From IMG/VR virus record IMGVR_UViG_3300017967_000092, positions 1 through 34,280 of that record: a DNA stretch of 34,280 nt, one strand, 5' to 3'. The translations under genes were made by a program, and so were the position numbers. Under the pieces are notes generated by a model. That model was not told the origin of the DNA. It did no database searches and saw nothing but the letters and a program-made list of their open reading frames with translations. The DNA comes from a virus. Below are positions 7,193 through 26,447 of this stretch, piece by piece (position 1 is the first letter of the stretch; each line of letters opens with the position of its first letter).

Positions 7193-7750
7193 TTACTTGT
7201 CCTGTTTTTTTGCTCTCAATTTAGCGAGGTCTTCTGCATCGATATCATTATCGTCATCAACATCCATGTGCTTCAACTGAGCAGCAGAGAGTTTCTTTTT
7301 CTCTGAAATAAATTCACCGAAAGACATAAACGATTCTTTCTTCATCTTCTTGTGGCCGCCATGCGACTCTTGTACCAACACAGTTACATCGTCATCGTCT
7401 ACATGTACAGTCTCAATGCCGTGTTCAAACATGACTTTATACCATGCAACATGACCATTCTCGTCAGGCACAGCGTGTTCACCAAACAGAGCAGTACCTT
7501 CGTTCCACTCTTTGTGCATGATCTTACTTGCACACATATGCTTGTCGCCTTCAAGAGAACCTTTCTCTACACCGTCAATCTTCGACTCGTTGGTTGCTCT
7601 CAATGCTTTTTGAACACCAGGATGTTTTGACAAACCTCTGGCAATTCCTTCAATCTTGCGAACTGCTGATGTCATATTCCCGCCTTTGACACGCGGATCA
7701 TTAATGATACCATATGCCATCTTGATTTGTTTGTCAGTAAAATTAGCCAT
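7193..7750 (-). CDS. Late protein with C-terminal EF-hand loop and FISE motif
   Basis: A 185-residue protein. About residues 65-130 are a folded domain rich in His and Trp (CASKIMHKEWNEGTALFGEH, AWYKVMFEHGIETVHVDD), seen in other marine phage late proteins but unassigned. Near residue 145 is SFMSFGEFISEKK, resembling T4 capsid-targeting peptides with an I-S-E possible protease site. Just after it, DVDDDNDIDAED fits an EF-hand/dockerin calcium loop (D1, D3, D5, I8, D12). The start overlaps the 920-residue gene as TAATG. I infer a head-internal or scaffold-associated protein. Confidence 0.68.
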   Translation of the reverse strand: MANFTDKQIKMAYGIINDPRVKGGNMTSAVRKIEGIARGLSKHPGVQKALRATNESKIDGVEKGSLEGDKHMCASKIMHKEWNEGTALFGEHAVPDENGHVAWYKVMFEHGIETVHVDDDDVTVLVQESHGGHKKMKKESFMSFGEFISEKKKLSAAQLKHMDVDDDNDIDAEDLAKLRAKKQDK

Positions 7751-10512
7751 TATTTTTTCTCCGGTAATCCTTTGTGTTTCGTTTCAGCATAGTCTTTTGC
7801 GTCTTTCTTGGACATCGACTTTGCAGCGTCAGCAACTTCTTTTGACGGTGCTTTCAATTTTCCAGACTTGACTGCATGAACCATACCCATGAATCTCTGT
7901 TGTGCTTTTGAAACTGCTTTCTCGTCAAGTTCGACTTCTTCGTTCATTTTACCTAACAACCAATCTCTCGGATCAGTATCTAAAGTCTTTGCAAATTTAA
8001 GAGCGCCTTTCTTATCGCCCCTCTTCAACATAGCGGCTACTTTCAACATATCATTTTTGTCAATGCCGCCGTGCTTCTTGGCATAAGTTTCGATTTCTTT
8101 CCATGACTCATCAAACTGCTCAACTTCTTCTTTCACCGGTTTTCCTCTTTTTACAATCATACCGTTCATGCCATCGGCACGTACTGTTTTAAGGAATTCC
8201 TTAGCATCCTCTAAAGACATAAACTTGGTAACTTTGATAGGCGAATTTTTGCTCTTAGCGTACTTGACTTCAAACTCTGGCTTTGCTTCATCAATCTGCT
8301 CGACTTCTTCTTTCATGTTTTTGATATAATCAAGGGCACTCTTTTTTGCTTTAGGCATACCGTTAAAAGTCTCCCACTCTTTGTCGTCAATATGCACGAC
8401 AATAGGATCAGTCATTTTAGTGCCTTTGCGATAATATGTGTGGGAGTGATCTTTGCCATCACCACCTTTGTAGACATATGAAGAAATAAACTTCATACCA
8501 GCAGGAACTTTTGATGCTTCGAATACTTGACTAGCAACCTTAACGACTTTCTTATCTGCTGTTTTGAGGAACTTCTGTAGTTCTTTCAAATCGCCTTGGT
8601 TGACAAGAAACGCCGCCATCTCAGCATCATCATTCTTCATCTTCTTCAATTGCGTTTCAACTTTACCACGAGCAGCAATCTTCATTCGCAGTGATGCTTC
8701 ATCAATCTCTTCACCACTTTGGCCTTCAATGTCAGACTTGCCAGAGAGACGCAATCTTAAATCTTTCTTGATCTTCGCGTCATTGACTCTCTCAACGTCT
8801 TTGAGTAAATCAACTTTCTTTAACAATTTACGAACCGCAACCTTGACTTTTCCAGGGCTGTCGCCGTCCATATAGAATCTTGGCAGACCCTCGACATCTA
8901 CACTGTACTTTGCTTCATCAAGATCGACTGACTCAGTGTACATGTTCAATTCGTAACCTTTGTTGTCCATGTTGTACACTTGCATATTCAATCGCTTATT
9001 GCGAATGGGTTTGCCTGATTTATCTAATAAGTTGATCTGATATGAATTTGTTTTACCAGCAGATGGTTTACGAGGACCAGTAGAAACTTTATTCCACCAG
9101 TCATCCATATCTACTTTGTAACCTTTCTTCTCTGCCTGCTTTATAGCATGTTGTACAGCAGAAGTAAAATCTTTGTGGTAAATTTGATAATCAGATTTTT
9201 CATCAATCTGATCGACTTCTTCTTTCTTCATCGCGGCGCGAGTCATCTTAACAGCCGCAGCGCGAGTGAGTTGCGTACTACCCATCGGCTTTACTTTAGT
9301 AGCAGACTGTGTTGCTTGGTGCATTCTCTTTTTGTATTTGTTATACGATTTTGTTGCACCCTCTTCAACCTGATCGAAATCTTCTTTCACGGTTTTCCAA
9401 CCTCCCCCAGCTTTCTTATATTGTTTTGCTGCCCATCCATTTGCGTATGCAGAAGGATAGACATCGAATTTTGCCTTAGCTTGTGCTTTAAACTTCGCCC
9501 ACAGAGCTGGATTAGTTGGCACGTTCTTCTCTACGAGTTCGACTGACTCTCCAACTGATTTGTATGGTGATTTTGTCGGACCGTGTTTTGCTCGATCTCT
9601 ATATGCTTGAGGCACTTTACCGGCGACTGACTTGTGACTCATTGTATCATCACCTCGGCGTGTGGCATGATGACGAGCAACGGCACGATTAATACCCTGA
9701 CCTATTTTCTTTGCCTTTGCACGGTTCTTTTCAGACTCAGTTTCATCTCCTGCTTTTCGTGCGTCCCTTGCTTTCTTTTGATAAGTGTATTGAGTCTTGC
9801 CGCCCATAGTTCTCTTTTCGATATATTTATGGACAGTATTTGGTGACAACTCATCTAGTTGTTCCGACTCTACAATATCACCGACTTGTTTAGTAGATAC
9901 CCAAACGCGACCACCTTCTTCAGCACACTTAGCAAGCATTTCATCTTTCGTACCGACAGCAGTTACCTTTCTGTGCATGACAAGCGCATAGTGACACTTA
10001 TCGCTACCAACTGCATCTTCACCGACCTTAATGGTTTTGACTTCATTCACTTTCTTTTTCTCCTTGTCAGTCTTGACCATGATCGGTGTGTTACCTGTTC
10101 CTGGTCTATCTACTTCTGGGTCTGCTCTTCTTTTTCTTCTTGCAGCCGAAGCACGGTCATCTTTACTCATTGAATGTGCTTTAGATCGCGGCATACACTT
10201 TGGTTTACCTTCACCCGGTTCACGAGCGCAATCACCTTTAATCTCACCATCAGTACCGACTCGTACCCAATCACCTTTCTTGCCTTTGCCAAACCACTTG
10301 CGAAGGTCTTCTTTTAATTTCATTCTGGCAAGAACTTTTTTCTGCACATCAGGAGACAACTCTTTAAAATGATACAGATTTTGACTATCATCGGTGTGTT
10401 CAGCACCAGTCATGACCTGACCATCGTGAGCGTGTTGAAGTCCTTTCCACTCTTTACCATCTTTGGTATAGTGGCCTTCAGTCTTCCAAGAATGTTTCTT
10501 ACCTTCTTCCAT
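7750..10512 (-). CDS. Large modular late protein with repeated (I/L/F)-D-E linkers; candidate head polyprotein
   Basis: A 920-residue, highly charged, lysine-rich protein built as beads on a string. Domain-like blocks are joined by near-identical acidic linkers: EQLDE (about 217-221), VELVE (324-328), DQVEEG (380-385), DQIDE (434-438), VDLDEA (529-534), EEIDEA (601-606), VFEA (663-666), EQIDEA (738-743), EQFDES (798-803) and VELDE (860-864). Blocks include a CMPRSKAHSMSKDDR module (about 70-150), a PTNPALWAKFKAQAKAKFDV module (about 332-375) and a C-terminal DUF3008-like module (KAQQRFMGMVHAVKSGKL to KHKGLPEKK). The linkers resemble T4 gp21 prohead-protease sites, (L/I)-x-E before A, G or S. 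I see no membrane segment or catalytic motif. It probably is a scaffold or internal head protein; function is inferred. Confidence 0.75.
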   Translation of the reverse strand: MEEGKKHSWKTEGHYTKDGKEWKGLQHAHDGQVMTGAEHTDDSQNLYHFKELSPDVQKKVLARMKLKEDLRKWFGKGKKGDWVRVGTDGEIKGDCAREPGEGKPKCMPRSKAHSMSKDDRASAARRKRRADPEVDRPGTGNTPIMVKTDKEKKKVNEVKTIKVGEDAVGSDKCHYALVMHRKVTAVGTKDEMLAKCAEEGGRVWVSTKQVGDIVESEQLDELSPNTVHKYIEKRTMGGKTQYTYQKKARDARKAGDETESEKNRAKAKKIGQGINRAVARHHATRRGDDTMSHKSVAGKVPQAYRDRAKHGPTKSPYKSVGESVELVEKNVPTNPALWAKFKAQAKAKFDVYPSAYANGWAAKQYKKAGGGWKTVKEDFDQVEEGATKSYNKYKKRMHQATQSATKVKPMGSTQLTRAAAVKMTRAAMKKEEVDQIDEKSDYQIYHKDFTSAVQHAIKQAEKKGYKVDMDDWWNKVSTGPRKPSAGKTNSYQINLLDKSGKPIRNKRLNMQVYNMDNKGYELNMYTESVDLDEAKYSVDVEGLPRFYMDGDSPGKVKVAVRKLLKKVDLLKDVERVNDAKIKKDLRLRLSGKSDIEGQSGEEIDEASLRMKIAARGKVETQLKKMKNDDAEMAAFLVNQGDLKELQKFLKTADKKVVKVASQVFEASKVPAGMKFISSYVYKGGDGKDHSHTYYRKGTKMTDPIVVHIDDKEWETFNGMPKAKKSALDYIKNMKEEVEQIDEAKPEFEVKYAKSKNSPIKVTKFMSLEDAKEFLKTVRADGMNGMIVKRGKPVKEEVEQFDESWKEIETYAKKHGGIDKNDMLKVAAMLKRGDKKGALKFAKTLDTDPRDWLLGKMNEEVELDEKAVSKAQQRFMGMVHAVKSGKLKAPSKEVADAAKSMSKKDAKDYAETKHKGLPEKK

Positions 10513-10764
10513 TTATTCTTCCGGTGTTTGTTCTAATCCAGATGAACCTGCGATAATTTCTTCTGGGTCAACCATCTCTGCACCAGAATCTCTCAGTGCA
10601 TCAATCACAGGTTCAGTAGGAATTTCTACCGGCTCTGGTTCAGGTTGTTGTCCATAATGTCCGTATTGTCTTTCTAATTCTTGTTGTCTAACATCATGAC
10701 CTTTCATCATGATCTCACGAGCAATATTTATCAAGTCAGTTGGATTATCTTTTAAATCAGCCAT
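10513..10764 (-). CDS. Small acidic proline/glutamate-rich protein
   Basis: An 83-residue acidic protein of unknown function. It has a short N-terminal helix (DLINIAREIMMKGHDVRQQEL), then a proline- and glutamate-rich disordered stretch (QPEPEPVEIPTEPV) and an acidic end. It abuts the 920-residue gene with no gap and is in the same late operon. A small structural or chaperone-like partner is conceivable, but no motif supports a specific role. Confidence 0.6.
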   Translation of the reverse strand: MADLKDNPTDLINIAREIMMKGHDVRQQELERQYGHYGQQPEPEPVEIPTEPVIDALRDSGAEMVDPEEIIAGSSGLEQTPEE

Positions 10765-10774
10765 TACAATGTCC

Positions 10775-11218
10775 TCATTTTTTAGTGAAGAATTTTTTAA
10801 TTTTATTCTTCGTTGTTTCTTTGTTCAACAAATCTTCATCCCATGCTAAGTGTTTTGGTAATTTACCATCACGTATCATGTCATGAAAAACCTTTTCAAA
10901 ATTTCTAAAGTCAGCACCAACATGTTTTGATGCTTGTACTGCATTCCATCTTGCTTTACCTGGATTCTTTCTTCTAAAGTCAAGATAATAACGAACCGCT
11001 TTTTTATATGAATCTTTATTCACAACACGATCAATCAATCTATCAAGCTTAGGATCATATGTAATCGTTCTCGCTTCGTTCGCTGGCCGTGACGCAGCAT
11101 TCTTTTCTCTGGTGTCACGAGTTCTCGCACGATCTAACATACGATCCTGTTTAACTTTATCTTGTTCTTTCTCGCGCTTAATTTGTCGGCGAGTTTCTTT
11201 TTCGTGTCTTCCTTCCAT
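10775..11218 (-). CDS. Basic helical late protein of unknown function
   Basis: A 147-residue basic protein. Residues 1-50 are a highly charged helix (RHEKETRRQIKREKEQDKVK). The rest looks like a compact helical domain (LDRLIDRVVNKDSYKKAVRYY, ARWNAVQASKHVGADFRNF) and ends in a lysine-rich tail (KNKIKKFFTKK). Such proteins often bind nucleic acid or scaffold, but I do not recognise the family. It lies 4 bases after the cupin gene in the late operon. Confidence 0.62.
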   Translation of the reverse strand: MEGRHEKETRRQIKREKEQDKVKQDRMLDRARTRDTREKNAASRPANEARTITYDPKLDRLIDRVVNKDSYKKAVRYYLDFRRKNPGKARWNAVQASKHVGADFRNFEKVFHDMIRDGKLPKHLAWDEDLLNKETTKNKIKKFFTKK

Positions 11219-11222
11219 ATAC

Positions 11223-11498
11223 TTATACAGTCTCTACTATTTTCAGTATTAGATTTGTGTCGCCTTTAATAAGACGGTGATAGTCCATTTGATTAACAGA
11301 TATCACATCACCTTCCATAAGTTCGATTGGATTCTTATTTTCGTATTGAAATTTCCAACCTGTGCCGTGAACAACTTCAATTCTTCTATCAGCTCTGTCA
11401 CGGTGCCAGTGTAGTTCTTCATCTTCACAATCGTGTTCGAACACACGAAAAAATGAATCATTTTCTAATTGTATATCTCTGTAAGCTCGGTTTGGCAT
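11223..11498 (-). CDS. Cupin-fold small protein
   Basis: A 91-residue single-domain cupin. Cupin motif 1 is seen as ELHWHRDRADRRIEVVHGTG, with His residues able to bind metal. Motif 2 is seen as LMEGDVISVNQMDYHRLIKG, whose His completes a typical metal site. Small cupins of this type recur in marine T4-like phages and resemble mannose-6-phosphate isomerase or sugar-binding cupins, but the substrate is unknown. It lies between the nucleotidyltransferase fusion and other late genes, with 3-6 base gaps. Confidence 0.72.
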   Translation of the reverse strand: MPNRAYRDIQLENDSFFRVFEHDCEDEELHWHRDRADRRIEVVHGTGWKFQYENKNPIELMEGDVISVNQMDYHRLIKGDTNLILKIVETV

Positions 11499-11504
11499 AA
11501 TTTA

Positions 11505-13247
11505 TCACCAGAAAAAGTTTCCGCCACCTGACATGCCTAACTGTTTAGCGTATCTAGGTAAACGACAAGCCCAGTATGCAGCGGAAGTTTTATCGTTTTG
11601 AGTTGAACACTTATGTCTTGCAGCGAATGATTTTCTCGCTTCAGGATTATCGATCTTTGCTTTCAATCCTGTTGTATCGCCAAACGTGACTTTCTTAATA
11701 TTGCCTGTACTAGGATCTTTTACATAGACATAAAACTTTTTAGGACCGCCGCGTTTTGGTTTGTTGAGTTCTTGTTTCTCTTCTTCTTCTGAAATAGACT
11801 CCATCATCGGACAGTCTAATGGAACCCACTCGCCATCATATTGTGCAAACTCACCGATATCTGTTTCAAGTATACTCTTATCGTAACTTTCAAACTCGTA
11901 ATCAGACTTTCGTGCCTCGTTGAACAGTTTGTAGTAATTTACACTGCCAACACGAAAAATGTTTTCTACAAGAGGAATATTGTTTTCAATGTGATAATCA
12001 AGCGCTTGCATTACTTCTCTTTTCTGTTGATTTGCAAGTTCTACATTCAACGATTGAAATGTCTCGTTGACACCTTTGTTACCTAATTTATGATTGAGGT
12101 ACATCTCTTTAATCTCAACAAAAGATAGTCCATACTTCTCGCTTTTCTTTTGCAAATTTCTTTCAATCGATTCTGTGATTCGATCTTTTTCGATGACATA
12201 CAACATCTCATTGACCGTTTTTAAATAATCAACATCACAATAATATTCTTCTTTCTGTAATTTTGATTGACGGTAACTCGCAAGTCTATCTCTTTCTGCT
12301 TTCGTGACTTTCGGAATTAACCTTTTTGCAATACGAGAGATGATTGCTTTTTTCTTTTCTAATTTTTTGTCAATAGCAGCGCGTGATGCGAGAGGTAGAT
12401 TCTTATAATTCTCGCCTTGTTTACCTGCTATTTTTCTACGAATTAATTCTCGCGCTTTTTTCTGCGCTCTTCTTTTGAGTTTTTCTCTTGGCGCCATTCT
12501 TCTCTTGGCGCGTTCTCGACCGATTTTAACTTTGTTTTTAATACGCCGAAACATCATCTTGCGCTTCATGCGTTGTTGCAGTGTGAGAACTTCTTGAAGT
12601 GTAAGGTCTTCAGTGATACCTAATGCGTTGCGAATGATGTTATATACCTCTTTCGCGTCTCTATCACTAAACTTACGGGGTAAACCTTGTCTAAACTGTT
12701 TGTACTCACCAGATACGGCCAAACCTCTGAGTTTTGATGCACTCATACCTGATACATCATCAGCATCTGGATCACGTTCACCGGCAGATACGATATCGAT
12801 GTTTTCGAATGCGTAGTCTCTGCCGTTGTACCTGTTGACAAGAGTTTCGAATTCTGTTATTCTATCTGAACCAACTACGATGGTAACACTATCAAAAGTG
12901 CCATCTAGTTCTTTCAATACTTCGATGATAGTACGAGCATCAGATCGTTGGACGATATTTCCAAATGCCTTCTTGGCGTATTTGATCTTCTGGTCGTATG
13001 TAAGAGGATTCTTCTTTTTATCAGAAGAATGGGAGAGGTACAATTGGGCTGTTGCTTTCTTTCTTCTTGCGACAGATACAATCTTGTCTACAAGTTTTTG
13101 GTGTCCACTCGTGATTGGGTTCATTCGTCCGAATGATAGAACCACGGCAGAGCCTGTCTTCTCGGATAATTTTAAAGTTTTTACTACTTGAGAACGCCCA
13201 TTATTCTCGGTTATAGGAGTATTTTTTTTCATTTCTTCTTCTTTCAT
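11505..13247 (-). CDS. Nucleotidyltransferase fused to a basic module and a phage C-terminal domain
   Basis: A 580-residue three-part protein. Part 1 (about 30-215) is an HxGH-type nucleotidyltransferase domain: SFGRMNPITSGHQKL holds the nucleotide-binding GH, and GMSASKLRG matches the C-terminal loop of NMN/pantetheine adenylyltransferases. Part 2 (about 220-335) is extremely basic and helical (KIGRERAKRRMAPREKLKRR), a module seen in many marine phage proteins. The C-terminal part (FYVYVKDPSTGNIKKVTFGD to GGGNFFW) is another recurrent late-phage domain. The start is uncertain: I chose the ATG at 13247 with AAGG upstream; ATG 13232 and GTG 13280 are alternatives. The substrate is unknown. Confidence 0.75.
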   Translation of the reverse strand: MKEEEMKKNTPITENNGRSQVVKTLKLSEKTGSAVVLSFGRMNPITSGHQKLVDKIVSVARRKKATAQLYLSHSSDKKKNPLTYDQKIKYAKKAFGNIVQRSDARTIIEVLKELDGTFDSVTIVVGSDRITEFETLVNRYNGRDYAFENIDIVSAGERDPDADDVSGMSASKLRGLAVSGEYKQFRQGLPRKFSDRDAKEVYNIIRNALGITEDLTLQEVLTLQQRMKRKMMFRRIKNKVKIGRERAKRRMAPREKLKRRAQKKARELIRRKIAGKQGENYKNLPLASRAAIDKKLEKKKAIISRIAKRLIPKVTKAERDRLASYRQSKLQKEEYYCDVDYLKTVNEMLYVIEKDRITESIERNLQKKSEKYGLSFVEIKEMYLNHKLGNKGVNETFQSLNVELANQQKREVMQALDYHIENNIPLVENIFRVGSVNYYKLFNEARKSDYEFESYDKSILETDIGEFAQYDGEWVPLDCPMMESISEEEEKQELNKPKRGGPKKFYVYVKDPSTGNIKKVTFGDTTGLKAKIDNPEARKSFAARHKCSTQNDKTSAAYWACRLPRYAKQLGMSGGGNFFW

Positions 13248-13326
13248 TGGAGATTGCCTTAGCCTTATCCTTCGAAGCACAGGTCTGCCGTAGCCTAAAC
13301 TGCACGTTATTATTATTTAGTAAATT

Positions 13327-16554: not shown

Positions 16555-17148
16555 TCAACTCCAATTACAATTTATATTATTTCCATCGAAACCTTGTTTT
16601 ACAGTTATAGGAAACCATTGAGAAAGAAGTTCGATATCACCAACATCATGATAGAGTTTTGGCAACGTGATACTTTTCTTTTCAACAATCACACTGATGT
16701 TATAACCATAACATTTTACGCTTGCTTTCGAGCAGTCTAATCCAGCAAGTATCATTCTATACAATAATAATCCCGCGTTCCATAAACTTACATGGCCGCC
16801 AACTATATGATGTTTTAACGGAGGAACTGTAATTGCAATTACTCCTGTTTCTTTAACTTCGGAAATCATTTTAGTTAAGAAACTATGTGTATCATGTTGA
16901 TGTTCTAAAACATGAGAACACCAAACAGCATCATGTTCTGTGAAGGATAATTTCATATAGTCACCTTCAATAACATTTTCTCTGGCAGCATGATAGTCTG
17001 TCGAAGTTACTTGTTTACCATGACGAATAAAAAAATCTGTATGAAGACAACGACCACAACCTACATCAAGAATGGTGTTAAAATTATATTTGTTTATCAG
17101 AAAATTTAATGTTTCATCTACATTAATAGTATTGTGTTTATGATTCAC
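16555..17148 (-). CDS. Class I SAM-dependent methyltransferase
   Basis: A 197-residue methyltransferase. Motif I is TILDVGCGRCLHT (SAM binding), an acidic post-I residue follows in VTSTDYHA, and DAVWCSHVLEHQHD matches motif IV/V of small-molecule methyltransferases. The C-terminal half is divergent and gives no substrate. The start is likely GTG at 17148, which forms a GTGA overlap with the ligase-like stop; TTG at 17157 is the alternative. It is the first gene of the glycan-modifying block. Confidence 0.8.
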   Translation of the reverse strand: MNHKHNTINVDETLNFLINKYNFNTILDVGCGRCLHTDFFIRHGKQVTSTDYHAARENVIEGDYMKLSFTEHDAVWCSHVLEHQHDTHSFLTKMISEVKETGVIAITVPPLKHHIVGGHVSLWNAGLLLYRMILAGLDCSKASVKCYGYNISVIVEKKSITLPKLYHDVGDIELLSQWFPITVKQGFDGNNINCNWS

Positions 17149-18371
17149 TTCTGCCAACCTTTAATCACATCAGGACTGAAGTTCGCCTTAGAGAATTCCA
17201 TGCGATCAACAATCTTGACAGCATTACCAATATGATCAATTGCAACAAACCCTTCTGGATTTGTTGTTCTGAATCCGTCTCTTGTTCTCAAAAATGTATC
17301 GAGCGATGATGCTTGATTCATCTTATTAATAATCATTTGTTTTGCATCGACAAGTAAATTCATCAATGTGAATAGATTCTGGAAGTCTCTTTGGTTATGA
17401 TCAGAGAAAACCTTCATAACGTCCTTTCTCTTCTCTATCCAAGTATCTTTTGATTTCTGTGTTTTCTTAGTGTCTATTTCTTTCTGATAATAAGAATACA
17501 TGTAATCAAATAAACCTTTCATGTGTGTACGCACATTTATTTTTCTTCCGGCGCGAACAAGCGTATTGTTGTATGTCTTGGTGCGTAACAACAACTCATC
17601 ATTCTCTTTGAATGCATTCAACAACGAGGCTGGTGTTTTTTGAAAGACAGCACCAGCATTTGATAACAGTGAGGTTATTTGAGCGGTCTCGGCTTTGGTG
17701 AACGTTGCGTTACCAGTTTCATCTCGGTATGTTGCATCTGTTTGCCATATTGTATTAGTTTGATTAAACGTACTTGCTATGTTTTTACCGAAACTAGCAG
17801 ACATAGATTCAAAATCACTACCAGTATAGACAGTGTGCCAGACAACACCAATTTTCGACCTGTTAATTCGTTTGCCGAGAGTAGAATTTGTAGGAACAGC
17901 ATACACGATAGTATTAGGTTGGAAAGTATAATAAGATTGACCATCAATTGTCTCCGTTGATACATCACCTTTTGTAAACATCAGATCGCCTTGATAGACA
18001 CCAGACTTGATGCCTAACTTGGAGAACTCTTCTAATGCAACCAATAATTTCTTTTGCAGGTCACCAGACGTATCTGCCTTCACATCAGCAGGTGTCTTGT
18101 AGACTTTTGGATTTTTATTGAAGACACCTTTCTTCGCGACAAAGAATTTACCGTCTGAAGGGTCGATGCCTGCGAATACTGCGGGTGCGCCATCCCATTT
18201 TACTGTGCGGGAAACACGTGACTTTGAATTACCGGCAAGCATATCTCGCAAGTCACGAAGAAAGTCAATTGCCTGTCGAGCACCATCAACACCGTCATTG
18301 AGCACCAAATCCTCGATGTGCTCCATGTGTGTGTTCTTGGCTTCCATAATATACTGATTAAATGTTTGCAT
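17145..18371 (-). CDS. Nucleotidyltransferase/ligase-fold protein with N-terminal head-targeting-like peptide
   Basis: A 408-residue protein with hallmarks of the covalent nucleotidyltransferase (DNA/RNA ligase) superfamily. Motif I is VKWDGAPAVFAG, with Lys58 as the likely AMP-accepting residue. GKFFVAKKGVF resembles motif III, EGFVAIDH (about 373) fits motif IV and AVKIVD (about 385) motif V. The family is known from marine phages as an uncharacterised group. The N-terminus MQTFNQYIMEAK resembles T4 capsid-targeting peptides and holds an I-M-E before A, a prohead-protease-type site. The start at 18371 overlaps the upstream stop as TAATG. Whether it seals RNA, DNA or another substrate is unknown. 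Confidence 0.72.
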   Translation of the reverse strand: MQTFNQYIMEAKNTHMEHIEDLVLNDGVDGARQAIDFLRDLRDMLAGNSKSRVSRTVKWDGAPAVFAGIDPSDGKFFVAKKGVFNKNPKVYKTPADVKADTSGDLQKKLLVALEEFSKLGIKSGVYQGDLMFTKGDVSTETIDGQSYYTFQPNTIVYAVPTNSTLGKRINRSKIGVVWHTVYTGSDFESMSASFGKNIASTFNQTNTIWQTDATYRDETGNATFTKAETAQITSLLSNAGAVFQKTPASLLNAFKENDELLLRTKTYNNTLVRAGRKINVRTHMKGLFDYMYSYYQKEIDTKKTQKSKDTWIEKRKDVMKVFSDHNQRDFQNLFTLMNLLVDAKQMIINKMNQASSLDTFLRTRDGFRTTNPEGFVAIDHIGNAVKIVDRMEFSKANFSPDVIKGWQK

Positions 18372-18703
18372 TATTGGTGATAACTCCCCCATAGACAATG
18401 TGCCATTTCGTGACCTAGTGTATCCACGTTCTCATCGTCTACACCTTTTGGTTGTATGATGTATATATCACACCAAAAAGAAGACGGTTCCCCATCCACA
18501 CCTTCATTCCAATTTGCAAAACCATGCAATCTTTCACTAGAAGATATTTTAGTACCATACAATCTTTCCAATTCTACACGACTTTCAGCTGTGTATACTG
18601 TTACTTCAATTGGTTTGCCAACTCTGTCGATACTACCAGATAATTTATTATCAGTGTCGCAACCAGAGATAATGAGTAAGAGTAGTAGACTTAAATATTT
18701 CAT
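18371..18703 (-). CDS. Small lipoprotein with an HExxH metalloprotease motif
   Basis: A 110-residue protein. The N-terminus (MKYLSLLLLLIISGC) is a lipoprotein signal peptide with lipobox IISGC, so the mature protein should be lipid-anchored from Cys15. Near the C-terminus, TLGHEMAHCLWGSYH contains HEMAH, the zinc-binding HExxH of metallopeptidases, followed after four residues by another His. The protein is very small for a peptidase. It overlaps both neighbours (ATGA upstream, TAATG downstream). It may be a minimal periplasmic protease or a catalytically weak relative; activity is unproven. Confidence 0.7.
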   Translation of the reverse strand: MKYLSLLLLLIISGCDTDNKLSGSIDRVGKPIEVTVYTAESRVELERLYGTKISSSERLHGFANWNEGVDGEPSSFWCDIYIIQPKGVDDENVDTLGHEMAHCLWGSYHQ

Positions 18704-21312: not shown

Positions 21313-21993
21313 TTACTTACTTCGTTCGGCGTTAATCCATTTTTGTGCAAGTGAGTTCTTAGGTGTTTTCTTAGACCAAGCACTGATCTTTCGATAGGCT
21401 GATTGTGTTGCGCCTTCCCAGTTTGAACCTTCACTGTTGTCAACGATGATCATGTTACCTTTGAAGGTGTTCTGGAATTTACCAATGTTCTGTTGAACCT
21501 CGTTCCACATCTCTGTTACTTTCTTTTCGCCGACTGTACGCGCTCGTAACTTGTCGCGAGCAATTGCTGTCTTCAGATCGGTGTTGACAAAAATCATGGC
21601 AGTCTCGTAACCAAGATTCTCAAAATCTTTTCTCTGCTTATCAATTTTGGCATAGTCTTTACCAGTACCGTCAATCACAATACCGAGTCGGCCTTTCAAG
21701 TAAGCGCCGAGTCTTTTACCAGTTAGTGTTTTGGACTTGTCTCTGATTGCTTGACCTTGCGCTGACCAAATATCTTCTGGATCGGTAGTCAGACCAGCTT
21801 TCTGTAACTGTACCTCATAGATATCGTCAGAGTTTACAGTCTTAAAACCGAGAGCGGTCAGTGCTGTCTTGCCTACGATGAAGGATTTTCCAGAACCGGG
21901 GCCGCCTGCTAGAAAGACAGCCTTGAAGATAGCGGGATCATTCACACCTTCTTCAAGGTTTGTGAATGTATCAAAATCGAAAATACGTGACAT
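21313..21993 (-). CDS. P-loop kinase with possible head-targeting N-terminus
   Basis: A 226-residue P-loop protein of the AAA_33/zeta-toxin/polynucleotide-kinase-like group. The Walker A motif is VFLAGGPGSGKSFIV (about 27-40). VNSDDIYE and IVIDGTGKD (Walker B-like) follow, then a lid with RTVGEKK arginines. The N-terminus FDFDTFTNLEEG ends in L-E-E before G, like a T4 prohead-protease site. Related kinases recur with the ligase-fold and nucleotidyltransferase genes in marine phages. A T4-like late promoter and GGAG precede it, marking late expression. The phosphate acceptor is unknown. Confidence 0.78.
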   Translation of the reverse strand: MSRIFDFDTFTNLEEGVNDPAIFKAVFLAGGPGSGKSFIVGKTALTALGFKTVNSDDIYEVQLQKAGLTTDPEDIWSAQGQAIRDKSKTLTGKRLGAYLKGRLGIVIDGTGKDYAKIDKQRKDFENLGYETAMIFVNTDLKTAIARDKLRARTVGEKKVTEMWNEVQQNIGKFQNTFKGNMIIVDNSEGSNWEGATQSAYRKISAWSKKTPKNSLAQKWINAERSK

Positions 21994-25513: not shown

Positions 25514-25804
25514 CTATTTTTGATCGGAAAAATCGATATCATGTACATATAATTGAATCAGAGCGTAGTGGAGTATCTTCATCAGGTCTTTCCGTGCGTC
25601 TTCCGAGGTGCCCTTCCGACCATATCGTTTCGCATACTTGATCACGTTTCCTAGACAGAAACCTGTACCGTGACCACTATCGATGATGATATCAGTAGCC
25701 TGATACTTCTCAGTTGCATAGTGTTGGTCATATGTCGAGTCAACGTATTGTTGCAACTCTTGCAACAATTTTTCTTCATTAAATTTATATTCAATCTTAC
25801 TCAT
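25514..25804 (-). CDS. DUF3310-like small protein
   Basis: A 96-residue protein whose C-terminal half (FCLGNVIKYAKRYGRKGTSE, then ARKDLMKILHYALIQL) matches the GNVIKY-type core of DUF3310 proteins, small phage proteins often found near nucleotide-metabolism genes and of unsettled function. I start at the ATG at 25804, which overlaps the oxygenase stop by 8 bases; the longer frame from 25903 lies inside that gene. It is the last gene before the early promoter region. Confidence 0.7.
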   Translation of the reverse strand: MSKIEYKFNEEKLLQELQQYVDSTYDQHYATEKYQATDIIIDSGHGTGFCLGNVIKYAKRYGRKGTSEDARKDLMKILHYALIQLYVHDIDFSDQK

Positions 25805-26447
25805 CGTTTTGTTGTTCTCTGATTTCGTTGTAATCTGTACCCATTGCATGTCCGCGATAAGGACCTGTTTCTTCTGTTCCATCGGATGATGTGTTTCTAA
25901 CACATTCTCGTTGACGTTTTATATCTATGTGGTTCACATAAAATTCATCGTCAGCATCAACATAATGAAAAAATGTCTGTATAAATTTTTCACCTTTAAA
26001 TGGTTTTGGCCTGCCGTGCATTTCATGGGTACCATTATAAATTAAACCGTCCCCCGGTTCAAGTTCTACGGACTCTGTTTGAACCAATCTACTCTCATCA
26101 TTATATTGATAAATGTTTATTGGCCAATCATGGTCTTTAAAGAAATTTACTGTCACAGATATCTGACACGAAGCACGATCAATATGCGGAACCATAAAAC
26201 TGCCGTTGCTGTACTGTGTTGTGAACCAATATGTCGGTAGAAGATTGACATTGAGTTCTTTTTCAATTTTTTCTTGTATGTCTTTATGTAAATGCTCAAG
26301 ACAGTTCGCCTTAGTTACCATTCTGATATGACCTCTGTTCTCATTCCAGCGAGCACCTGTCGTCAATTCTTTAATTTCTTCTTCCAGAGGATCTAACAAC
26401 GATTCGATTACATCCTTGTCAATCAGATTTTTTATCAGTCTTGTCAT
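25797..26447 (-). CDS. 2-oxoglutarate/Fe(II) oxygenase-like protein
   Basis: A 216-residue protein with the Fe(II)-binding facial triad of 2OG oxygenases: MVPHIDRASCQISVTVNF gives His-x-Asp, and the distal GDGLIYNGTHEMHGRPKPF gives the second His, with an Arg placed to bind 2-oxoglutarate. Such enzymes hydroxylate proteins, nucleic acids or small molecules and are frequent in marine phages. A charged C-terminal tail of about 40 residues (IDIKRQREC) is unexplained. It overlaps the cytidylyltransferase gene by 29 bases and has GGAG before its ATG. Confidence 0.8.
   Translation of the reverse strand: MTRLIKNLIDKDVIESLLDPLEEEIKELTTGARWNENRGHIRMVTKANCLEHLHKDIQEKIEKELNVNLLPTYWFTTQYSNGSFMVPHIDRASCQISVTVNFFKDHDWPINIYQYNDESRLVQTESVELEPGDGLIYNGTHEMHGRPKPFKGEKFIQTFFHYVDADDEFYVNHIDIKRQRECVRNTSSDGTEETGPYRGHAMGTDYNEIREQQNDE

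Follow-up and report, generated by a model that had tools for sequence, protein, structure and literature searches.

A 920-residue viral protein as a probable modular precursor of internal head proteins

The window analysed here is a 34,280-nt stretch of viral DNA (IMG/VR record IMGVR_UViG_3300017967_000092, positions 1 to 34,280), which encodes, among others, primase, nrdA-type, thymidylate synthase and DnaB-type helicase genes; a scan of the window for tRNA genes found none. We focused on an open reading frame (ORF) at 7750..10512 on the minus strand, which starts with ATG, is open throughout and specifies a protein of 920 residues. The same protein, with 100% identity, is encoded on a separate 63-kb contig, the “twin”. 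Pfam gave a single match for the protein, a C-terminal DUF3008 slightly below the cut-off, and neither Pfam nor NCBIfam recognised an embedded peptidase or a conflict-enzyme domain in it; the NCBIfam search, made with five proteins, gave no match. Nine PHROGs match the protein, all of them annotated as of unknown function.

Linkers and modules of the 920-residue protein

The initial annotation had described unlike blocks joined by acidic linkers that end in (I/L/F)-D-E, four of them followed by Ala or Ser and others by Lys or Leu, and this description is exact. Seven (I/L/F)DE sites end at residues 221, 438, 533, 605, 742, 802, and 864, and the residues that follow them are, in order, L, K, A, A, A, S, and K. 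Among 10,000 composition shuffles, the mean number of such sites was 0.52 and the maximum 4. A longer acidic-linker pattern, written post hoc with the sequence already seen, occurs six times, compared with 0.0024 expected. The number of “about ten” junctions given in the initial annotation holds only if looser sites are counted: the strict sites number seven, and twelve are obtained when five looser module edges are added, i.e. LKE↓D (residue 68), VNE↓V (157), LVE↓K (328), VEE↓G (384), and VFE↓A (665), the arrow marking the joint. In seven of the eight pieces between strict sites Lys and Arg outnumber Asp and Glu, and in one the numbers are equal, a trait of small basic proteins; two of the eight pieces are longer than 200 residues.

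Taken together with its homologues, the protein is composed of about 13 modules, M1 to M13. The residue directly before a joint is denoted P1, the third residue before it P3, and the residue after it P1′. For every module edge we counted the upstream contexts of homologues in other loci; the window defined the module starts and was itself excluded from the counts. Homologues were admitted where similarity begins within 5 residues of the module edge, and contexts were dropped if their 25 upstream residues were more than 35% identical (ungapped) to those of the window or of each other. In the following list, “both” denotes Leu, Ile, Val or Met at P3 together with Glu at P1.

M1, residues 1-68: 10309..10512, minus strand; HSWKxEGHYTKDGKEW type, homologues elsewhere behind IKE↓G, VPE↓G, and VKE↓G (M1 edge: P1 Glu in 5 of 5 contexts, both in 3)
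Joint LKE↓D, residues 66-69: 10306..10317, minus strand; M2 edge, P1 Glu in 8 of 9 contexts, both in 4
M2, residues 69-157: 10042..10308, minus strand; DLRKWFGKGKKGDW type, shares 51% identity over 92 residues with a segment of ORF29 of cyanophage S-SCSM1 (E 6e-19)
Joint VNE↓V, residues 155-158: 10039..10050, minus strand; M3 edge, weak, P1 Glu in 2 of 3 contexts, both in none
M3, residues 158-221: 9850..10041, minus strand; directly adjoins M8 in locus L033 and precedes other sequence in L025 and L028
Joint LDE↓L, residues 219-222: 9847..9858, minus strand; M11 takes the place of M3 ahead of M4 in L096, where the joint likewise reads LDE↓LSP (M4 edge: 1 context, P1 Glu and both in 1)
M4, residues 222-328: 9529..9849, minus strand; a single relative, in L096
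Joint LVE↓K, residues 326-329: 9526..9537, minus strand; M5 edge, P1 Glu in 14 of 16 contexts, all 14 with an aliphatic P3 (both)
M5, residues 329-384: 9361..9528, minus strand; KNxPTNP...FDVYPSAYANGWA type
Joint VEE↓G, residues 382-385: 9358..9369, minus strand; predicted from the sequence, with no independent contexts
M6, residues 385-438: 9199..9360, minus strand; predicted from the sequence, no homologue found in another context
Joint IDE↓K, residues 436-439: 9196..9207, minus strand; strict site in a low-confidence stretch of the structural model (model residues 1-9, 11-15); M7 edges of relatives misaligned (0 of 12)
M7, residues 439-533: 8914..9198, minus strand; predicted folded domain
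Joint LDE↓A, residues 531-534: 8911..8922, minus strand; M8 edge, P1 Glu in 6 of 6 contexts, both in 5; low confidence at model residues 103-105, touching the joint
M8, residues 534-605: 8698..8913, minus strand; predicted folded domain
Joint IDE↓A, residues 603-606: 8695..8706, minus strand; strict site, low confidence at model residues 168-179
M9, residues 606-665: 8518..8697, minus strand; predicted from the sequence, no homologue found in another context
Joint VFE↓A, residues 663-666: 8515..8526, minus strand; M10 edge, P1 Glu in 8 of 8 contexts, both in 6
M10, residues 666-742: 8287..8517, minus strand; KVPAGMKF type
Joint IDE↓A, residues 740-743: 8284..8295, minus strand; strict site; M11 edge, P1 Glu in 4 of 5 contexts, both in 1
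M11, residues 743-802: 8107..8286, minus strand; an ORF of L193 reads MKDFFELRE↓ and then M11
Joint FDE↓S, residues 800-803: 8104..8115, minus strand; strict site, no support from M12 homologues (0 of 5)
M12, residues 803-864: 7921..8106, minus strand
Joint LDE↓K, residues 862-865: 7918..7929, minus strand; M13 edge, P1 Glu and both in 9 of 10 contexts, the lone miss being a frame whose reading begins upstream of a solo start codon
M13, residues 865-920: 7753..7920, minus strand; DUF3008, 82% identical over 55 residues to the stand-alone, virion-labelled ORF93 of S-SCSM1

An AlphaFold2 model of residues 427-605 has a mean predicted local distance difference test score (pLDDT) of 76.3. M7 and M8 are folded in this model, their blocks mostly scoring 80-91, and pLDDT falls below 50 at model residues 1-9, 11-15, 103-105, and 168-179, which are linkers at or touching three joints. 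When PDB and BFVD were searched with the M7-M8 model in Foldseek, nothing reached E≤0.001. The best VIA match, Mog1 (Z 5.1, root-mean-square deviation 3.9 over 83 residues), was not taken as a relationship. The model of residues 1-221 was of poor quality, with a mean pLDDT of 55.9, and remained unused, as did, for folding, the alignments A1 (full-length, 70 module segments) and A2, which were out of register.

Shuffled modules and the residues at their joints

Scans with the whole protein and with four parts of it yielded 195 loci on viral contigs (79 + 9 + 80 + 20 + 7, some contigs being repeated). Including annotated and genome stretches, 209 loci and the window were analysed, T4 being excluded. 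Of 7,505 unique reading frames of at least 40 residues, 162 (the window's included) contain any of the modules M1 to M13. A recount over all reading frames distinguished 28 architectures, nine with a single module and 19 with several, and the orders of the latter include M2-M5-M1, M1-M2, M3-M8, M2-M7-M10-M5, M2-M11-M4-M5, M12-M7-M10-M13, and M13-M7-M10. Pairs in the order of the window recur (M1-M2 in nine ORFs, M4-M5 in L096), and its complete order was found in no other protein among the 209 loci. The first set of ORFs lacked overlapping and short ORFs and did not cover 46 of the 275 pieces matched by tblastn with the 920-residue protein, among them the 473-residue protein of L096 with the order M2-M11-M4-M5.

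The claim of the initial annotation that blocks recur as separate proteins is borne out by the single-module architectures, and most clearly by the last module. M13 is the only module in 60 frames, and 50 ORFs begin as stand-alone DUF3008 proteins. On many contigs the stand-alone proteins begin at the very residue that follows the joint of the fused forms, in which M13 stands behind (L/I/V)xE↓K(A/S)VSK in nine contexts. In L142, M13 is embedded within a homologue of S-SCSM1 ORF92, between VIEE↓K and VDE↓A; S-SCSM1 has ORF93 beside ORF92. Compared with L190, L191 contains an extra in-frame module of 219 nt right before IDE↓KSVSK as well as scattered point differences, and the upstream identity of the two is 98.8%. 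The two loci thus differ by the gain or loss of one module at a joint.

To characterise the joints, we estimated the residue fractions ahead of the module edges. The recount over all reading frames comprised 80 contexts. Their lineages are not wholly independent of each other, and we therefore relied on the pattern rather than on nominal probabilities. Glu occupies P1 in 57 contexts and Asp in none, P3 is Leu, Ile, Val or Met in 48, and both hold in 43. The respective values of the first count, made with filtered ORFs, were 54, 0, 46, and 41 of 75 contexts. For comparison, the upstream background fractions are 0.096 for Glu, 0.059 for Asp, and 0.19 for Leu, Ile, Val and Met together, and (LIVM)xE accounts for 32 of 1,210 triplets. 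This background, the composition at P1′ and P2, and the comparison of joint DNA given below were derived from the first ORF set. P3 and P1 are kept and P2 varies widely (Glu 0.16, Asp 0.20); Glu is found at P4 with a fraction of 0.15, and P5 and P7 are rich in it (0.31 and 0.29), as in an acidic linker.

The head protease gp21 of T4 cuts after L/I-x-E, and in the internal protein (IP) IPIII residues 8 and 10 (P3 and P1) govern processing and residues 4 and 7 targeting, with Asp at residue 10 blocking processing (PMC9026906). The motif (L/I/V/M)-x-E that precedes most modules, even where they stand behind a different module, matches this gp21 rule.

Head proteases, virion homologues and competing explanations

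In the T4 record, IPIII starts with MKTYQEFIAE↓A and IPI with MKTFKEF, and the major capsid protein gp23 carries FLTE65↓A. Related contigs were searched in sets of 10 and 12 for Peptidase_S77, the family of gp21, and matches above the cut-off were obtained in three contigs of the first set and eight of the second (11 of 22); of the 14 genomes covered by a control search, one gave a signal below the cut-off. A pattern search found the major capsid protein in 8 of 10 stretches around the protease genes of relatives and had no match in L223 and L224. At the place of T4 FLTE65↓A these capsid proteins have GIME↓A, LLSE↓T, QLNE↓V, FLSE↓A, SLME↓A, and FLTE↓A, putative cuts with propeptide ends that were matched to T4 gp23 by eye. 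Some related module proteins start with MKSFKTYMLDE↓, MKTFKEYHLDE↓ or MKTFKQYLDE↓, comparable to the start of T4 IPIII. Starts of the form M(K/R/Q)(S/T/N)(F/Y)xx(F/Y/H) were counted in 27 deduplicated ORFs of all kinds, and residue 10 is Glu in 20 of them (background 10.5%) and Asp in four, three of which lie within an LDE that ends at residue 11. In L190, MKNFKEFVAE↓K is found within the chain, behind DUF3008.

Homologues of the module proteins are linked to virions by the literature and by record labels. In S-SCSM1 the gene order around the last module is NMNAT (ORF91), a linker protein (ORF92) and the solo DUF3008 protein (ORF93), followed by primase and nrdA. CsCl-purified S-SCSM1 virions contained 45 phage proteins by mass spectrometry, including NMNAT (ORF91) (PMC9602691), and a cytidylyltransferase was described among cyanophage virion proteins (PMC3037559) and in S-CREM2 virions (PMC10665884). 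ORFs 29, 92, and 93 are homologues that carry a virion protein label in the record. Candidate joints are VSE↓GTLHKWF, IEE↓SVRVPAK, and VSE↓GAAWTKK in ORF29 and LDE↓RTRYAKE in ORF92. Methylophilales phage Melnitz, an isolated relative, also has a module protein and a comparable gene neighbourhood. At E≤0.001 the 13 modules matched two of the 48 virion-labelled ORFs (M2 to ORF29, M13 to ORF93) and none of the 201 others. Whole module-bearing proteins matched four of the 48 (ORFs 29, 91, 92, and 93) and again none of the 201, a hypergeometric value of about 0.001, with ORF91 matched via its NMNAT domain and ORF92 via sequence outside the 13 modules. Two similarities below the threshold, M5 to ORF29 (E 0.009) and M1 to a 23-residue piece of ORF217 (E 0.024), were not counted.

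We consider it probable that the ORF encodes a modular precursor of internal head proteins that is cut apart in the prohead. The precursor would enter the prohead core together with the scaffold. Cleavage by a gp21-type (Peptidase_S77) protease of the phage, on the C-terminal side of the Glu in each (L/I/V/M)-x-E joint, would then release some ten to thirteen proteins, small and mostly basic, which would remain with the packaged DNA or be ejected with it, like T4 IPI-III and Alt. The initial annotation had likewise suggested a head polyprotein, and this interpretation is supported in part: the gp21 rule at most joints, the capsid sites and S77 genes of relatives, and the virion-labelled homologues are in agreement with it, and a targeting peptide is lacking.

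Several observations weigh against this reading. The 920-residue protein starts with MEEGKKHSW and not with a T4-type targeting peptide, MK(T/S)(F/Y)xx(F/Y)...E, and strict T4-like starts were found in 8 of 130 module-bearing ORFs compared with 23 of 1,636 others, and in 8 of 157 module frames. The gene lies near primase and nrdA, outside any head cluster, and not between portal and major capsid genes like those of T4 core proteins; the virion-labelled ORFs 89-93 of S-SCSM1 have a similar placement away from a head cluster. Neither Peptidase_S77 nor gp23 has a match in the 34-kb window or the 63-kb twin, both of which must be fragments because gp23 is absent from them. No homologue of M6 or M9 was found in a different context among the 209 loci. 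The edges of M3 and M11 are weakly supported (both positions in none of three and one of five contexts), and those of M7 (12 contexts) and M12 (five contexts) do not have a single Glu at P1. The latter two edges appear to be out of register in distant homologues: (L/I/V/M)xE ends 1-7 residues ahead of the M7 edge in 9 of the 12 contexts, which we scored as misses without moving the edges, and with both modules excluded P1 is Glu in 57 of 63 contexts. T4 gp21 sites usually have Ala, Gly or Ser after the cut, as the initial annotation had noted, and Ala or Ser does follow four strict sites of the window. As a general rule for P1′ this fails: among the 41 joints where P3 and P1 both conform, 21 have Lys at P1′, compared with Ala in T4 gp23 and IPIII. 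Finally, we counted 48 virion labels in the S-SCSM1 record compared with the 45 proteins of PMC9602691, so that three labels may rest on other grounds.

A place near the capsid genes is occupied in L085 by a relative of the 185-residue protein encoded next to our ORF (see below): it has linker-like joints of its own and lies between a putative portal gene (10004-11557, which we take to be portal) and the protease gene, the place of T4 gp67/gp68. The core proteins of T4 are each cleaved to several fragments, most of which leave (PMC9026906), and the 920-residue protein could similarly be a core or scaffold protein that is cut at its joints, with fragments that leave or decay and modules that are not mature head proteins. 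However, it has no match in L085, ORFs 29, 92, and 93 of S-SCSM1 are labelled proteins of CsCl-purified virions, and M7 and M8, which are predicted to fold with good confidence, look compact, unlike the acidic T4 gp67. This explanation is unlikely.

The joints could also be recombination scars or flexible hinges in a protein that works uncut, the modules being swapped by DNA exchange. The mean identity of the 24 nt of joint DNA is 0.41 (54 contexts), compared with 0.28 at 30-54 nt upstream (50 contexts), and both edges of the extra module of L190/L191 share GAACAG/GAGCAG. This moderate similarity makes recombination within the linkers likely as well. However, a DNA identity of at least 80% is seen in only 0.14% of joint pairs, and DNA exchange does not predict a kept P3 and P1, a free P2, and Glu but never Asp at P1. 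The same motif closes targeting-type starts and sits at the place of the capsid propeptide, and we regard an uncut protein as slightly less likely still than a core protein. That the protein is never packaged and acts in the cytoplasm in takeover or counter-defence, with the acidic motif as a docking peptide, would fit the gene's place among replication and metabolism genes and the missing N-terminal targeting peptide, but is very improbable in view of the virion labels on homologues in the matching S-SCSM1 neighbourhood and the targeting-type starts of some relatives.

Under the favoured reading of a precursor cut in the prohead, modules carry their own sites, and phages can therefore add, drop, reorder, split off or fuse them with the products left intact. 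We lean slightly towards the wider view that marine T4-like phages use the capsid protease as a polyprotein processor. Cargo modules, each with its own joint, would enter the prohead as a single chain, in fixed stoichiometry, and be released in the head for ejection with the DNA; with joints that are cut sites, the chain would also be an evolutionary cassette system with modules swapped between phages.

Neighbouring genes and comparison with known systems

Other genes of the window also contain joint-like motifs or are of interest in their own right:

185-residue neighbour ORF: 7193..7750, minus strand; FISE↓KKKLSAAQ... and then an EF-hand-like tail at its end
NMNAT/cytidylyltransferase-like protein: 11505..13280, minus strand; own LQE↓VLTLQQR junction, homologue of ORF91 in S-SCSM1 virions
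DUF6267 protein: 17145-18398, minus strand; an in-frame ATG at 18371 would give MQTFNQYIME↓AKNTHMEHIED
Zeta-toxin-like P-loop kinase domain: 21313-21993, minus strand; N-terminus MSRIFDFDTFTNLEE↓GVNDP
Possible auxiliary metabolic gene: 25797-26447, minus strand; best PHROG match annotated as ferrochelatase

Residues 55-141 of the 185-residue neighbour are 59% identical over 87 residues to an ORF of L085 (11741-12718) that directly precedes the protease gene, and its SLEGDKHMC block recurs there. The EF-hand-like tail stands behind an internal targeting-like peptide in this neighbour (7193-7750, minus strand), in L190 (6184-7125) and in the L085 ORF. An Arg/Lys-rich module (VLTLQQRMKRKMM / VLSVQGRLKRKF) is found behind LQE↓, LDE↓ or ITE↓ in unlike proteins, with the NMNAT-like protein of the window (11505-13280, minus strand), L003, L016, and L190 as carriers. 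The DUF6267 protein, with a start resembling the IPIII targeting peptide, is perhaps another internal head protein. A kinase domain similar to the Zeta-toxin-like one leads M1-M2 module proteins in L003 and L005. The solo DUF3008 protein ORF93 of S-SCSM1 (L091, 7995-8204) has RTFKEFLEYIE as its C-terminal sequence, which resembles a targeting peptide; T4 Alt, too, is processed C-terminally.

If the proposed processing is correct, tailed phages have a polyprotein strategy that is driven by the head protease, the (L/I/V/M)xE rule predicts cut places and head entry of uncharacterised marine phage proteins, and “hypothetical” multi-domain proteins of ocean phages become predicted sets of injected cargo. 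The rule can be checked on existing virion mass-spectrometry files.

Among the matches listed, the literature on phage prohead proteases, polyproteins and capsid processing, capsid targeting sequences of marine T4-like phages, and cyanophage virion or internal head proteins contained no report of such a modular joint arrangement, and no literature on DUF3008 in phages was found. The “polyproteins” in PMC3391216 and PMC7689252 are concatenated proteins and a polymerase fusion, respectively, and not this arrangement. We know of no shuffled folded modules in T4 gp22, gp67 or gp68. Nevertheless, the view of the initial annotation that no polyprotein strategy is described for tailed phages is too strong: these three T4 core proteins receive several gp21 cuts each (PMC9026906, PMC5694885), and polyproteins have served as a point of comparison for the polyvalent proteins found in phages and conjugative elements (PMC5512222). 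The T4 core fragments differ in that they belong to the scaffold or core and are mostly removed. Polyvalent proteins (Iyer et al. 2017, PMC5512222) are also long multi-domain chains with domain mosaicism and proposed packaging and injection, but they have embedded peptidases and recognisable enzyme domains, whereas here the head protease would do the cutting in trans. The main text of that paper does not contain the word cyanophage. Head proteins of giant phages (SPN3US gp245, PhiKZ) are also cut after Glu, sometimes several times per propeptide (PMC10052503), but these propeptides are removed from single mature proteins.

The closest counterparts are T4 IPI, IPII, IPIII, and Alt, which share the (L/I)-x-E rule, the targeting-type starts of some relatives, the mostly basic pieces, and a cargo that is diverse from phage to phage. 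They differ in that each has its own gene and one or two cuts, whereas here a single chain links about 13 modules, with sites where they meet. We do not class the 920-residue protein as a T4 IP because it was tested for an N-terminal targeting peptide and does not have one, in contrast to the T4 proteins. From its sequence, it appears to work like T4-type internal proteins that have been concatenated.

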